Part shown: piece after piece, positions 37,863 to 45,021 of the stretch | Position numbering within the stretch: the stretch's first letter is position 1 | Layout: every line of letters starts with the position of its first letter | Assembly: GCA_022566265.1 (NCBI GenBank) | Contig: JADFJG010000012.1 | Location: 1 to 46,821, forward strand | Direction: 5' to 3' | DNA: 46,821 nucleotides | Origin: Pseudomonadota bacterium | GTDB lineage: Bacteria > Pseudomonadota > Alphaproteobacteria > SMXQ01 | Translations under genes and position numbers: made by a program | Notes under the pieces: model-generated | What the model saw: only the letters and a program-made list of their open reading frames with translations | The model's database searches: none | What the model was told of the DNA's origin: nothing

Positions 37863-37885
37863 ACCCGAATGCCTCCCCCCTTTAG

Positions 37886-38153
37886 CCCGGATTTCTCACC
37901 ATGGACAGGCGCGTCATCGCGTCGGGCGGCGTCCGGTCCACCAGGAGAAGGCCCGGGAGCGTAGCCTGGGCTACGGTCAAGGCCTTCGACGCCGTGGGCG
38001 GCCCGTGCCGTGCGCGACCCGAAGGGCGGTGGCTATCGCACGACAGGCGTCGTCGAAGCGCTTGCCCGATGTGCTGACATCGCGCCGCGCGCTTCTCCTG
38101 GCCTGTCGTGCGATAGCCACCGTGCCGCACCTGTCCATGGTGAGAAGTCCGGG
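37886..38153. repeat. Nested inverted-repeat element upstream of pepP
   Basis: Outer arms cccggatttctcaccatggacagg (37886-37909) and its mirror (38130-38153) match over 24 bases with one mismatch. Inner arms of 21 bases, ggtggctatcgcacgacaggc (38028-38048) and its mirror (38101-38121), match perfectly. The arms share one centre only loosely, so two stacked hairpins are possible. No transposase lies inside. The wider gap 37863-38397 holds no convincing gene; a short palindrome cgcgaggttctcgcg at about 38350 is also present. Confidence 0.75.
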
Positions 38154-38397
38154 CAAGTGCCCACTTTCATAGGAGGGGGCGCCGCGCGAGGCAAGCGCTA
38201 ACCGCCCGAGCTTCTTTTCACCCTCCCATGGAAGCAAGTACCCGGGACGAGGCGAGGAAAGCCATGCAAAATCCTCGGGCCTGGGGCGCAAAAAAGCCGC
38301 TGGTAACGGCGGGGCGATTCATTAGTTTTCTAAGCAGCAGCGCGGCCCTCGCGAGGTTCTCGCGAACCGCCCATCCGATCTACCAAGGAGTAAAAAT

Positions 38398-38858: not shown

Positions 38859-39102
38859 CGCTGAAACCGATGCGGATTTCTGGGCCAACGCCGAGTTGAT
38901 AGAGCCGGACAGAACCCAGCATGTGACCTTGCGGATCAAAAAATCCGTGCTCGATCATTTTAAGGCCGGGGGTAAGAAGGGCTACCAAACCCGCATTAAT
39001 GCGGTGCTGGAATCCTATTGTGCGAGCACAGGAAAAAAAACCGCGATGACTACCAGGGCCGGTGAAACACCATGCCTTGCCTTCCTCCATGTTCTGTGTT
39101 AA
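38857..39102 (+). pseudogene. brnA-type antitoxin remnant, 5' truncated
   Basis: The frame from 38857 reads as the C-terminal ribbon-helix-helix part of a BrnA antitoxin: DFWANAELIEPD, VTLRIKKSVLDHFKAGGKKGYQTRINAVLESY. BrnA proteins usually have about 25 more residues before this. Here the frame is closed by TAA (38854-38856) that belongs to the inverted repeat, so the gene was cut at the repeat. No brnT toxin is visible upstream. The last 20 residues after GKKT do not look family-like. A TTG at 38896 could start a short product, but the gene is most likely dead. Confidence 0.7.
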
Positions 39103-39103
39103 A

Positions 39104-39121
39104 ATGTGTACATTAGCACAT
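39104..39121. promoter_or_regulatory. Putative operator of the RHH/ParE module
   Basis: ATGTG-tacattag-CACAT is an inverted repeat placed 17 bases before the antitoxin start. Ribbon-helix-helix antitoxins usually repress from such sites over their own promoter. The region is AT-rich; no confident -35/-10 pair was assigned. Confidence 0.45.
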
Positions 39122-39138
39122 ACTGAGGATTTGACGAC

Positions 39139-39402
39139 ATGGCCAGCACGACCTTGACCGTCCGGCTAGCACCGGAACTCAAGGATCGCCTTGGCAAACT
39201 TGCCGAGCGGACCCGCCGTACCAAGTCATTCCTCGCCGGGGAAGCCATTGCCGGTTATGTCGAGCGCGAACTGGAAATCGTCTCGGGTATCGAGCGCGGC
39301 CTGGACGATATGAAGGCCGGACGCGTCGTTTCCCACGAAGACGTTATGGCCGACATTGACGCCACGATCAAAAAAGCAAAAACAAAGCGACCGAAGCGGT
39401 GA
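39139..39402 (+). CDS. Ribbon-helix-helix (CopG/ParD-like) antitoxin
   Basis: An 87-residue protein. The N-terminal ribbon TTLTVRLAPELKDRLGKLAERTRRTKSFLAGEAI is a clear RHH DNA-binding domain. The C-terminal half (DMKAGRVVSHEDVMADIDATI) is the type that wraps the toxin in ParD/RelB antitoxins. It lies directly before and overlaps (GTGA) a ParE-type toxin gene, so it should neutralise the toxin and repress the operon. The inverted repeat just upstream is a candidate operator. It is intact, in contrast to the modules on either side. Confidence 0.9.
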   Translation: MASTTLTVRLAPELKDRLGKLAERTRRTKSFLAGEAIAGYVERELEIVSGIERGLDDMKAGRVVSHEDVMADIDATIKKAKTKRPKR

Positions 39403-39707
39403 GGCCTGTTGTCTGGTCAAGGCACGCCCACAATGATTTTCGCGGCATCATCGGCACTATCGCGCGGGACGATCCCACCGCCGCCGACAACGTAGCCAAC
39501 CGTATCGATCAAACCATTCAAGCTCTCGCCGCCACGCCGACAGGCCGCAAAGGCCGGGTGTCCGGCAGCTATGAAAAAGTGGTGCGCGGTATGCCCTACA
39601 TCATCGCCTACGCCCTAGGCGATGAACCCAAGGGCCATGAGACCGTCACGATCCTGCGCGTCATTCACGGCGCGCGGGACTGGCGCGAAGAAAGCTGGCC
39701 AGCGTAA
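39399..39707 (+). CDS. ParE/RelE-superfamily toxin
   Basis: A 102-residue toxin of the ParE type, starting at a GTG (39399) that overlaps the antitoxin stop. Typical segments are VVWSRHAHNDFRGIIGTIARDDPTAADNVANRI, LAATPTGRKGR, VRGMPYIIAYAL and the C-terminal VTILRVIHGARDW. ParE toxins poison DNA gyrase and RelE toxins cleave mRNA; the end RVIHGARDW favours ParE but the target is not provable here. It appears complete. A 38-base repeat begins 11 bases after its stop. Confidence 0.9.
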   Translation: MRPVVWSRHAHNDFRGIIGTIARDDPTAADNVANRIDQTIQALAATPTGRKGRVSGSYEKVVRGMPYIIAYALGDEPKGHETVTILRVIHGARDWREESWPA

Positions 39708-39717
39708 CCGGCTCCGG

Positions 39718-39755
39718 TGAAGCACTATTGGTAATTCTGTCTCGAACCCGCCGCC
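39718..39755. repeat. 38-bp direct repeat, left copy
   Basis: tgaagcactattggtaattc and the following 18 bases match 40474-40511 at 34 of 38 positions, including 19 or more unbroken bases around ggtaattctgtctcgaac. The repeat period is 756 bases and the two copies bracket the higBA-type module. It follows the ParE toxin gene. Confidence 0.85.
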
Positions 39756-39842
39756 CCTTGCCGAGCAGGGCTAATGGGAGCGTCGGTGCGATGAAGAGCC
39801 ATGGGAAAATGGCTTAGGGATTAAAATTTGCCATTCCATACC

Positions 39843-39855
39843 ATATATGATATAT
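39843..39855. promoter_or_regulatory. AT-rich palindrome upstream of the higBA-type module
   Basis: ATATAT-g-ATATAT is a perfect odd palindrome, 10 bases before the ruined toxin start. XRE-type antitoxins bind such dyads over their own promoters. It could serve as operator and -10 region; no -35 was assigned. Confidence 0.4.
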
Positions 39856-39865
39856 TTCCTAGGTA

Positions 39866-40192
39866 ATCACATGGACTGTAGAAACGTTAAACCGCACGGT
39901 AGATCAAGAACTTGCGGCGCTTCCCGCCGATTTTCGCGCCCGGTGCTCCCGCATTGCCGAACTCATTGAAGCCGTCGGGTTGCCCCACGTCGGAGAGCCG
40001 CATGCAAAGCATATCCAGGGCCGACTTTGGGAAATCCGCCTGAAAGGAAAATCAGGTATCGCCCGTGCCCTTTAGGTCACCGCCAGCCCCGAGCGCCTCG
40101 TCGTTCTTCGTGTCTTTACCAGGAAGACGCGGAAGATTCCTAACCGCGAAATCCGGCTGGCGCTACGACGAGCGAAGGAGCTTGAACAATGA
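39866..40192 (+). pseudogene. HigB-like (Gp49 family) toxin, inactivated
   Basis: Translated by hand, because stops and the lack of a start keep it out of the ORF track. The frame runs 109 codons from 39866 to a TGA that overlaps the antitoxin ATG. It reads as a full phage-derived Gp49-like/HigB toxin: WTVETLN, ELAALPADFRARCSRI, HVGEPHAKHIQGRLWEIRLKGKSGIARAL, then RLVVLRVFTRKTRKIPNREI. Two lesions are visible. The expected ATG before TW is ATC (39866), and the tyrosine codon after ARAL is TAG (40073-40075). The rest is undamaged, so inactivation seems recent. Stop readthrough alone would not rescue it without a start. Confidence 0.8.
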
Positions 40193-40476
40193 CCAAGGTA
40201 AAAGACCTGCACGAAAAATGGATGGAAGAGCCGGGCTACAAATCCGCCTATGATGCCCTGGACGACGAATTTCAGTTGGCGAAAACCCTCATCGAGGCCC
40301 GCAAGCAGGCAGGACTTTCACAAGACCAGTTGGCCCGCCGGATGAAGACTTCCCAATCCTACGTTGCCCGCATCGAAAGCGGGCAGGTGCGCCCGTCCAC
40401 CAAGGCCCTTGAGCGCTTTGCCCGCGCCACCGGCACACGCCTCAAAATCACTTTCGAGCCCGCCGAAGCCCGCTGA
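40189..40476 (+). CDS. XRE-family antitoxin (HigA-like), now without an active toxin
   Basis: A 95-residue protein with a helix-turn-helix of the XRE type (LIEARKQAGLSQDQLARRMKTSQSYVARIESGQVRPS) followed by a helical TKALERFARATGTRLKITFE end, common in HigA-like antitoxins. The ATG at 40189 overlaps the toxin-frame stop. GGAG lies eight bases upstream. The gene is intact although the toxin frame is broken. It may persist as a stand-alone regulator or protect against related toxins; that is inference. Confidence 0.88.
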   Translation: MTKVKDLHEKWMEEPGYKSAYDALDDEFQLAKTLIEARKQAGLSQDQLARRMKTSQSYVARIESGQVRPSTKALERFARATGTRLKITFEPAEAR

Positions 40477-41548: not shown

Positions 41549-43825
41549 TCAGGCCGGTTTTACGAAACTGTCGATGACCTTCTTGATGCCGGCCTTCTCG
41601 AATATGATCTCGAGCTTGTTGAGATCGACCGCCAGGATGCGGCCGTAGCCGAACTTCTGGTGGAACACCCGGTCGCCGACGCCAACGATACCCGCGCCCC
41701 TTCGTTTCGCCGCCTCGAATCTGCGCGCATCGGCATCGATCGCAGGTCCCGGACGCGCGCGGGAGCGGAGGTTGGCGAAGGCCATGCCCATCTCCGAGAG
41801 ACCGGCGTCGGGGCCCCCTTGCCGCCCGGCGCCGCGCCCGGTGTAAAGGCCGGGGCTGGTCATGTGCTCGACATGGTCCGGCGGCAACTCGTCGATGAAG
41901 CGCGACGGGATGGCGCTCACCCACTGATTGAACAGGCGCCGGTTGGCGGCAAAGGAGATGCGGACCCGCTTGCGCGCCCGGGTGATGCCGACATAGGCGA
42001 GCCTGCGTTCCTCCTCGAGCCCGGCGTGGCCCGATTGATCGAGCGCCCTTGTATGGGGAAACAACCCCTCCTCCCATCCCGGCAGGAACACGGTGTCGAA
42101 CTCCAGCCCCTTGCCGGAATGGAGCGTCATCACATTGACGAGATCGCCGCCGGCGGCCCGGTCGTGGTCCATCACCAGGCTCACATGTTCGAGGAATTCC
42201 CCCACCGTTTCGAAATCCTCGAGCGCGGCGACGAACTCCTTGAGGTTATCGAGCCGGCCGGGCGCGTCGGCCGATTTGCCGTTCCGCCACATCCCGGTGT
42301 AGCCCGACTCGTCGAGCACCCCCTTGGCCAGGGCCGAAGGCGTCATGGTCTGGGCCTGGGCGCGCCAGCGGTCGAAGTCGTCGAGCAGCCGGGAAAGCGA
42401 TCCACGCGCCCTCGGCGCGATCTCGTCGGTCTCGACCAGGCGCCCGGCGGCAGTGGTCAAGGCGATGCCCTCGGCCCGCGCCAGGCGGTAGATCGTCTGT
42501 AGGCTCGCCTTGCCGATGCCCCGTCTCGGCACGTTGACGATGCGCTCGAACGCGAGGTCGTCGTCGGGCTGGGCGAGGACGCGCAAGTAGGCGACGGCGT
42601 CGCGGATCTCGTGGCGCTCGTAGAACCTGAGACCGCCGATCACCCGGTAGGGAATGCCCAGGAGGATGAAGCGTTCCTCGAACTCGCGGGTCTGGGCGCC
42701 GGCGCGCACCAAAATGGCCATATCGTCGAGCCGGCATCCCTGGCGCTGCAAGGCCTCGATCTCGTCGGCCACCATCCGCGCTTCCTCGGCGCCGTCCCAC
42801 ACCCCGCCGACGACGACCTTGTCGCCGTCCTCGCCCTCGGTCCAAAGGGTCTTGCCGAGCCGGCCTTCATTGTGGGCGATCAGGCCCGAGGCGGCGGCGA
42901 GGATATGCGGCGTCGAACGGTAGTTGCGCTCCAGGCGGACGATCCGGGCGCCGGCGAAGTCCTTCTCGAAGCGCAGGATGTTGCCGACCTCGGCGCCCCG
43001 CCAGCCATAGATCGACTGGTCGTCGTCGCCGACGCAGCAGATGTTGCCGCCGCCCTGGGCGAGCAGGCGCAACCACAGATACTGGGCGACGTTGCTGTCC
43101 TGGTACTCATCGACGAGGATATATTTGAAGCGCCGCTGGTAGTCCGCCAGCACCTCCGGATTCCGGGTGAACAGCGTGAGGGAGTGGAGCAGCAGATCGC
43201 CGAAGTCCGCCGCGTTCAGGGTGCGAAGCCGTTCCTGGTATTGCCCGTAGAGCTCCAGCGCCCGGCCATTGGCGAACTCGGACGCGGCGGAGGCCGGCAC
43301 CTTGGCGGGCGCCAGCCCCTTGTCCTTCCAGCGCTGGATCACCGTCACCAGGGCGCGGGCCGGCCACTTCTTCTCGTCGATATTCGCCGCCTCGAGGACC
43401 TGCTTGGCGAGCCTGATCTGGTCGTCGGTATCGAGGATGGTGAAGCTCGGCTTGAGGCCGACGAGCTCGGCGTGGCGGCGCAGGATGCGCGCGCAGATGG
43501 CGTGAAAAGTGCCGAGCCACAGGCCCTGGGCGGAGGCGCCGACCAGCCCCTCGACCCGCTCGAACATCTCCCGCGCCGCCTTGTTGGTGAAGGTGACGGC
43601 AAGGATCTGGCCGGGAAACGCCCGCCCGGTGGCGAGGATATGGGCGAGGCGGGTGATCAGCACCCGGGTCTTGCCGGTGCCGGCGCCGGCGAGGACCAGA
43701 ACCGGCCCATCGAGCGCCTCCACCGCCACGCGCTGCTCCTCGTTCAGCGCCTGGAGGTAGGGAGTACCGCTTAGCGCCCCGGCGCGCACCGGCGCCGAAT
43801 TATCGGGTTCGGGGGATTCGGACAT
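41549..43825 (-). CDS. UvrD/PcrA-family superfamily 1 DNA helicase
   Basis: A 758-residue 3'-to-5' helicase of the UvrD/PcrA type used in repair and replication. Motifs: LNEEQRVAVEA (Q motif), Walker A AGAGTGKT (residues 46-53), TFTNKAAREM (Ia), VDEYQDSN (II), GDDDQSIYGWRGA (III), LERNYRST (IV), VMTLHSGKGLEFDTVFLPGWEEGLFP (V) and RLAYVGITRARKRV (VI). The C-terminus carries a Tudor-like PcrA end (VGDRVFHQKFGYGRI). The ORF track begins at 43957, but an extended -10 lies between that and the ATG at 43825, so 43825 is chosen. pcrA or uvrD2 would be possible names. Confidence 0.93.
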   Translation of the reverse strand: MSESPEPDNSAPVRAGALSGTPYLQALNEEQRVAVEALDGPVLVLAGAGTGKTRVLITRLAHILATGRAFPGQILAVTFTNKAAREMFERVEGLVGASAQGLWLGTFHAICARILRRHAELVGLKPSFTILDTDDQIRLAKQVLEAANIDEKKWPARALVTVIQRWKDKGLAPAKVPASAASEFANGRALELYGQYQERLRTLNAADFGDLLLHSLTLFTRNPEVLADYQRRFKYILVDEYQDSNVAQYLWLRLLAQGGGNICCVGDDDQSIYGWRGAEVGNILRFEKDFAGARIVRLERNYRSTPHILAAASGLIAHNEGRLGKTLWTEGEDGDKVVVGGVWDGAEEARMVADEIEALQRQGCRLDDMAILVRAGAQTREFEERFILLGIPYRVIGGLRFYERHEIRDAVAYLRVLAQPDDDLAFERIVNVPRRGIGKASLQTIYRLARAEGIALTTAAGRLVETDEIAPRARGSLSRLLDDFDRWRAQAQTMTPSALAKGVLDESGYTGMWRNGKSADAPGRLDNLKEFVAALEDFETVGEFLEHVSLVMDHDRAAGGDLVNVMTLHSGKGLEFDTVFLPGWEEGLFPHTRALDQSGHAGLEEERRLAYVGITRARKRVRISFAANRRLFNQWVSAIPSRFIDELPPDHVEHMTSPGLYTGRGAGRQGGPDAGLSEMGMAFANLRSRARPGPAIDADARRFEAAKRRGAGIVGVGDRVFHQKFGYGRILAVDLNKLEIIFEKAGIKKVIDSFVKPA

Positions 43826-43852: not shown

Positions 43853-43971
43853 CGTCCCTCGCCCGGTTCCATGGCCGAGAAGCGGATCGGCGGGATCATC
43901 TTCCAATTCCGCGTCGCATCGAAATGCGAAATCGTGTAAGCTTCCCCATCGCGCCATCGTGGGAGGGTTCC

Positions 43972-45021
43972 GTGTCCGGCGTTTCCAAAACTGTTTCGAT
44001 CGCCCTTGCAGGTTTGACCCGGCTTCGCCTGGCCATCGCTTCGCTGTCGATGATGGCGGCGATGGTCGCGCTTGCGCCGCCGGCCCTGGCGGCGAAAGAC
44101 GCCGGCGAGATGACCGTGGATAAGCTGCTTCAGGCGGTGGTCAAGGTGCACACCAGGGTGCCGGCCCAAGCCCGCACGGCGAGGGGCCTCGGCACCGAGC
44201 GCGAGGGCTCCGGCGTCATCATCGCCAAGGACGGCCTTATCGTCACCATCGGTTATCTGATCTTGGAGGCCACCGAGATCGATGTCGTCGATCACCGGGG
44301 GCGGACCCGGCCGGCGGAGTTCGTCGGTTACGACCACGATTCGGGCTTCGGCCTGATCCGCATGCGCGGCGCGGCCGATGTCGAACCCCTCGAATTCGGC
44401 GATTCGTCCAAGCTCACCGAACGCCAGCCGGTGATGGTGGCGAGCTTCGCCGGCGCCAAGGACGCCATCCCCGCGGTGGTGGTCTCCCGGCGCGAGTTCG
44501 CCGGCTATTGGGAATACCTGCTGGACAACGCCATCTTCACCTCGCCGCCCCATTACAACTGGGGCGGCGCGGCCCTGATCGGCGCCGACGGGCGGTTGCT
44601 CGGCATCGGCTCGCTGATCGTCGGCGACGCGGTGGAGGGGCAGCAGGTGCCCGGCAACATGTTCGTGCCGATCGACCTCCTCAAGCCGATCATGGGGGAC
44701 CTGTTAGCCAAGGGACGCGCCGCCAAACTGCCGAAGCCCTGGCTCGGCATGCACACCGAGGAGATCAGGGGAAGGGTGTTCGTCACCCGGGTCACCGCCG
44801 CCGGTCCGGCGCAGAAGGCCGGCATCGAGCCCGGCGACATCGTCATCGGCATCGGCGATGCCGGCGTCAGCTCGATGGCCGATCTCTACCGCAAGATGTG
44901 GGCGCTGGGAACGGCCGGGGTCGAGGTGCCGCTCAAGATCCTTCACGGCACCGATGTTCAGGAACGCGTCGTCCACTCCGCCGACCGCTACCAGTTCCTG
45001 AAATTGCGGCCGAGTTACTGA
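43972..45021 (+). CDS. DegP/HtrA-like S1C protein with PDZ domain, catalytic triad lost
   Basis: A 349-residue exported protein. A signal peptide is seen (LRLAIASLSMMAAMVALAPPALA, cleavage near residue 41). A trypsin-like fold follows (GSGVIIAKDGLIVT) and a PDZ domain from about residue 255 (WLGMHTEEIRG, AGPAQKAGIEPGDIVIGIGD). The triad is missing: the TNAHVV position reads TIGYLI (Tyr95 for His), the Asp region is DHDSGFGLIR, and GNSGG is YNWGG (Trp197 for Ser). It is probably not a protease but a periplasmic binding or scaffold protein. GTG 43972 is chosen because GGGAGG lies five bases upstream; ATG 43924 lacks this. It is divergent from the helicase. Confidence 0.85.
   Translation: MSGVSKTVSIALAGLTRLRLAIASLSMMAAMVALAPPALAAKDAGEMTVDKLLQAVVKVHTRVPAQARTARGLGTEREGSGVIIAKDGLIVTIGYLILEATEIDVVDHRGRTRPAEFVGYDHDSGFGLIRMRGAADVEPLEFGDSSKLTERQPVMVASFAGAKDAIPAVVVSRREFAGYWEYLLDNAIFTSPPHYNWGGAALIGADGRLLGIGSLIVGDAVEGQQVPGNMFVPIDLLKPIMGDLLAKGRAAKLPKPWLGMHTEEIRGRVFVTRVTAAGPAQKAGIEPGDIVIGIGDAGVSSMADLYRKMWALGTAGVEVPLKILHGTDVQERVVHSADRYQFLKLRPSY

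Follow-up and report, generated by a model that had tools for sequence, protein, structure and literature searches.

The window analysed here, the 46,821-nt contig JADFJG010000012.1 of a Pseudomonadota bacterium (Alphaproteobacteria; SMXQ01; assembly GCA_022566265.1), encodes an HtrA-like protein in which the residues needed for proteolysis appear to be replaced. A preliminary description had read it as a DegP-like pseudoprotease with a retained binding role in the periplasm. This raises the question of whether the protein is a protease in decay, an enzyme with a displaced active site, or a protein kept for a function other than cutting. The explanation that we favour, at somewhat better than even odds, is that the gene product is exported, belongs to a conserved family of HtrA-derived pseudoproteases and binds clients without cutting them.

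Reading frame, export signal and fold

The open reading frame and the Pfam domains found in it confirm a real gene with a clean frame (Table 1), which is also open from an in-frame alternative ATG at position 43924. The GGGAGGG motif ahead of the GTG makes the start codon chosen in the preliminary description a sensible one. Residues are numbered according to the 365-aa reading (P0001). The N-terminus has a hydropathy of 2.21 across 15 residues and its hydrophobic stretch ends in ALA-A, in agreement with the earlier claim of an intact signal peptide; residues 7–34 form a helix in the AlphaFold2 model. The predicted signal peptide would direct the window protein to the cell envelope.

Table 1. 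Positions of the gene, its sequence features and its divergent neighbour in the window
Feature	Position	Strand	Evidence and remarks
uvrD/pcrA helicase, divergent neighbour	41549..43825	-	Pfam; context, not a demonstrated partner
Shine-Dalgarno-like GGGAGGG	43961..43967	+	Sequence; putative role; just 5' of GTG 43972
HtrA-like putative pseudoprotease, coding sequence	43972..45021	+	GTG start; ORF listing, translation, Pfam Trypsin_2 and PDZ
Sec-type signal peptide (predicted)	43972..44091	+	Hydropathy; predicted cleavage after ALA, residue 56 (365-aa reading)
Trypsin_2 (degenerate HtrA protease) domain	44206..44607	+	Pfam, E 1.1e-14
Tyr111 at the catalytic His position	44254..44256	+	Of 152 relatives, 149 have Y, 2 have F and 1 has a gap
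Gly141 at the catalytic Asp position	44344..44346	+	G in 152/152 relatives
GYWEY motif, residues 194–198, region of regulatory loop L3	44503..44517	+	W, E and Y invariant
Trp213 at the position of the Asn that precedes Ser; Gly214 at the catalytic Ser position	44560..44565	+	Family alignment
PDZ domain	44740..44964	+	Pfam PDZ_2; begins at the W-L-G-M carboxylate-binding loop

The protease domain is followed by a single PDZ domain (Pfam E-value 2e-11), with no other domain found by Pfam after it. Against the NCBIfam model degP_htrA_DO the protein scores 90 bits, below the cut-off of 416 bits. The carboxylate-binding loop of HtrA PDZ domains follows the pattern Arg/Lys-XXX-Gly-hydrophobic-Gly-hydrophobic (PMC11642142). 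The window protein retains the hydrophobic-Gly-hydrophobic part, but Trp replaces the first Gly. This W-L-G loop is nearly invariant in the family (W273 in 150/152 and G275 in 151/152 members), which together with the Pfam match bears out the description of the PDZ domain as intact.

An AlphaFold2 model of the whole protein, made with an alignment of 68 family sequences, reached a pLDDT of 91.3 and a pTM of 0.86. Its best PDB matches in Foldseek were DegQ and DegP (E about 1e-22, TM near 0.5), which are the best PDB matches by sequence as well. When the protease domain was modelled alone, the pLDDT was 94.8 and the TM to DegP/DegQ 0.78–0.81. Pfam, AlphaFold and Foldseek agree on a trypsin-type double beta-barrel plus a PDZ domain, so the HtrA fold is indeed intact. 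Since the TM is about 0.8 for the domain but about 0.5 for the whole protein, the model suggests that the protease and PDZ domains are arranged differently from those in DegP/DegQ.

The former active site

Conservation counts rest on 152 distinct relatives, and for some columns on 150. The family alignment shows neither His nor Asp at the corresponding triad sites in any of the 152 relatives; the Tyr in place of His and the Gly in the Asp region, both pointed out in the preliminary description, are present and shared by nearly all or all relatives (Table 1). For the third position, which had been described as Trp for Ser, a shift of one residue is needed. A gapless comparison of GNSGGAL with NWGGAAL places the catalytic Ser on Gly214 and the preceding Asn on Trp213, so that the Trp replaces Asn. 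Because the canonical DegPs have N in the Trp213 column of a profile HMM alignment and Ser occupies 214 in 17 of the 152 relatives (in most of them within WSGAA, and in all 17 without the His and Asp), Gly214 is taken as the Ser position, in a register that comes from alignment and not from coordinates. The window protein lacks Ser under either register.

Position 213 is aromatic in 150 relatives (Trp 107, Phe 36, Tyr 7) and His in 2. At position 214 Gly occurs in 105 relatives, Ser in 17, Ala in 16, Asn in 13 and Thr in 1, and Gly215 is found in all 152. The oxyanion position 212 is Asn in the window protein, with Gly in only 5/152 relatives. With the triad His and Asp absent throughout, the oxyanion Gly usually lost and no alternative His conserved, pseudoprotease status is strongly supported at the family level by the alignment, as had been proposed for the window protein. 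The latter is predicted to be unable to cut because the His, Asp, Ser and oxyanion Gly are all gone.

A cryptic enzyme with a displaced or minimal site could still be imagined, built for example from Ser230, Asp137 and Tyr111, since S230 and D137 are each found in 147/150 members and Y111 is fixed. We consider this very improbable. S230 belongs to the GSL strand that follows the L1 loop, outside the nucleophile loop, hardly any member keeps the oxyanion Gly, and a search for a conserved His column across the family found none (the best column reaches 101 of 150 members, the next 54). The lack of a conserved His makes a displaced triad unlikely too.

Family, selection and genomic context

A scan of genome contigs yielded at least 576 confirmed family loci. 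The distribution of bit scores is bimodal, with no intermediates: all relatives that score above 335 bits are without the triad, and the next homologues, which score below 136 bits (69–136), all retain it where covered. A family member was present in 71 of the 282 good genomes in an even sample of the Alphaproteobacteria, and many of these genomes had two. A phylum sample gave 32 positive genomes out of 293, of which only two were outside the Alphaproteobacteria. The loci listed include metagenome-assembled genomes labelled Desulfobacterales, Syntrophaceae, Gammaproteobacteria and Betaproteobacteria (labels and binning taken as given). The two members from outside the class in the phylum sample (L167 and L168, family f172) have His at position 213, in one case with an adjacent Ser (DHSGAGL). 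Members go by the names ‘S1C family serine protease’ or ‘signal protein PDZ’ in plasmid records. Database entries under these names from Pararhizobium, Neorhizobium and Phyllobacterium belong to the same family (about 45–48% identical); the name implies an active enzyme, but the triad is absent, and unlike the window protein they have no signal peptide.

A same-genus orthologue is identical at 317 of 349 residues (91%), and the pair gives dN 0.045–0.051, dS 0.16–0.29 and dN/dS 0.16–0.32. Judged from these values, selection on the window gene is purifying. Loss of all catalytic residues could also point to a decaying pseudogene of a DegP protease, but the frame is clean, dN/dS is well below 1, and identical substitutions are fixed in over 150 relatives from many families. 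Conservation in the family and the dN/dS rule out such decay for practical purposes. The check for conservation in homologues, proposed in the preliminary description, was carried out and found the site changes fixed in all relatives examined, which makes them more than chance; by this comparison they are old and fixed across the family.

The host genome contains four homologues, namely the window gene, a paralogue and two canonical DegPs, both of which carry His, Asp and Ser (HDS). The paralogue (L002; 1486–2460, G000 contig C95) is 48% identical to the window protein and has identical site changes, but no signal peptide. N-terminal hydropathy divides the family into the window type with a signal peptide and another branch without; L117, L134 and L002 are among the members that have an in-frame stop 12–30 codons upstream of the core and no hydrophobic stretch. 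Signal loss was mapped onto a tree that had the canonical DegPs as its root, after a correction of the signal labels by eye in which L148 was left out and the signal was taken as present in L056, L168 and, though ambiguous, L006. One loss maps to a clade that comprises 42 rows (SH-aLRT 87, not starred), the other to a Reyranella-type lineage whose sister bears a signal (SH-aLRT 96). Export has apparently been lost twice within the family. Because the signal peptide is missing, the signal-less branch including L002 is presumably cytosolic. The periplasmic location claimed earlier fits the window gene by its signal peptide, but not the family, in which a large branch including the host paralogue is signal-less.

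In the window, prmA lies beyond uvrD/pcrA, and a gene for an SMP-30-like protein lies downstream of the window gene. The uvrD adjacency recurs at 21 family loci and appears to reflect long-standing synteny, not an operon. Clustering of the neighbours at 96 loci showed that these differ by lineage; Azospirillaceae loci have a conserved block with nudix, cysteine-synthase-like and other genes (named by eye). As a search for an operon partner, this clustering returned lineage-specific synteny only and no functional partner. Elsewhere in the window, a cluster of small toxin-antitoxin-like ORFs was recognized by eye at 38896–40476, between pepP and prmA. It consists of a 68-aa ORF (38896–39102), a ribbon-helix-helix-like 87-aa ORF (39139–39402) that overlaps a ParE/RelE-like 102-aa ORF (39399–39707), and a 95-aa HTH ORF (40189–40476). 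In the block 37882–38330, GGYRTTG...LSCDSHR is read on both strands (37882–38130 minus, 38010–38201 plus), and the block looks like an inverted intergenic repeat.

Proposed binding without cutting and its precedents

Like HtrA, DegP, DegQ and DegS (MEROPS S1C), the window protein combines a trypsin fold with PDZ and an export signal, and DegQ and DegP are its top PDB matches. Unlike these proteases it has no triad and only one PDZ domain. Loops LA, LD, L1, L2 and L3 control HtrA activity (PMC11642142); in the window protein the L1 loop is remodelled and a motif of its own, GYWEY, takes the place of the L3 region. Within this motif W196, E197 and Y198 are invariant in both family subgroups.

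The closest experimental precedent is MamO, an HtrA-derived protein that has lost catalysis, promotes MamE proteolysis non-catalytically and binds metal, and in which a non-Gly residue 193 prevents formation of the oxyanion hole (PMC4794232). The window protein resembles MamO/LimO of magnetotactic Alphaproteobacteria as an HtrA-derived pseudoprotease with a non-Gly residue 193. However, MamO keeps His116 and Asp149, with Thr at the Ser position, whereas the window protein has none of these, and MamO has a C-terminal TauE domain, whereas here only PDZ follows the protease domain. MamO binds metal by a His pair (positions 148/263); in the columns of the window family's alignment no two conserved His were seen. 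Furthermore, the window gene lies outside a magnetosome island, with prmA, uvrD and the SMP-30-like gene as neighbours, and its family is far wider in distribution than MamO/LimO. Membership of the MamO group is not supported, as the TauE domain and the magnetosome island are missing; nor was a conserved His pair seen in the family.

Two alternatives follow the MamO example. Firstly, the protein could bind a metal or small ligand on the trypsin scaffold, as does the metal-binding side of MamO (PMC4794232). The conserved polar residues E115, D137 and E197 and the occurrence of His210 in two thirds of the members would fit this, but we regard it as improbable, since no His pair is conserved and Cys is essentially absent from the family. 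Secondly, it could be a regulatory subunit that joins or docks on canonical periplasmic DegP/DegQ and switches or targets the protease, similar to MamO and MamE. Two HDS DegPs are encoded in the same genome, the strongest invariance sits in the L3 region, a regulatory loop in HtrA proteases, and MamO/MamE provide a precedent (PMC4794232). Still, a regulator of this kind seems unlikely: the branch without a signal peptide shares the motifs although it has no access to DegP in the periplasm, neighbour clustering showed no linkage to degP genes, and activation by MamO needs the TauE domain that the window protein lacks.

Under the favoured explanation of an exported, client-binding pseudoprotease, Sec export would deliver a mature protein in which the double-barrel trypsin fold and the single PDZ domain are retained. 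In sequence, the old active-site region is now made up of the fixed Tyr, the aromatic residue at the former Asn194 position and the invariant WEY in the L3 region. The protein would most probably hold peptides of periplasmic clients, via the PDZ loop and/or the remodelled groove, and act without catalysis as an adaptor or holdase; the host's two active DegPs may work beside it. The retained binding role proposed earlier is plausible in view of the nearly invariant PDZ W-L-G and purifying selection; the short motif suggests that binding is PDZ-mediated. The signal-less sister branch would have to act elsewhere, as it lost the signal peptide. As a broader and more tentative possibility, the family may form a widespread alphaproteobacterial pseudoprotease system with exported and cytosolic paralogues, in which the HtrA fold was rebuilt as a peptide-binding adaptor with the old active site (Tyr111, aromatic 213, GYWEY) as its pocket. 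Such a system would work on either side of the inner membrane and would have moved from periplasm to cytosol twice.

In the open-access literature we found no description of this family, and the only paper there on a bacterial HtrA pseudoprotease concerns MamO; within this literature the family is apparently undescribed so far. In hundreds of genomes, most of them from Alphaproteobacteria (Rhizobium and Azospirillum among them), a protein that by sequence cannot be a serine protease is labelled as one. That non-catalytic motifs are fixed over so broad a range points to a binding function yet to be studied, and in the signal-less branch an HtrA-type protein would be at work outside the envelope.
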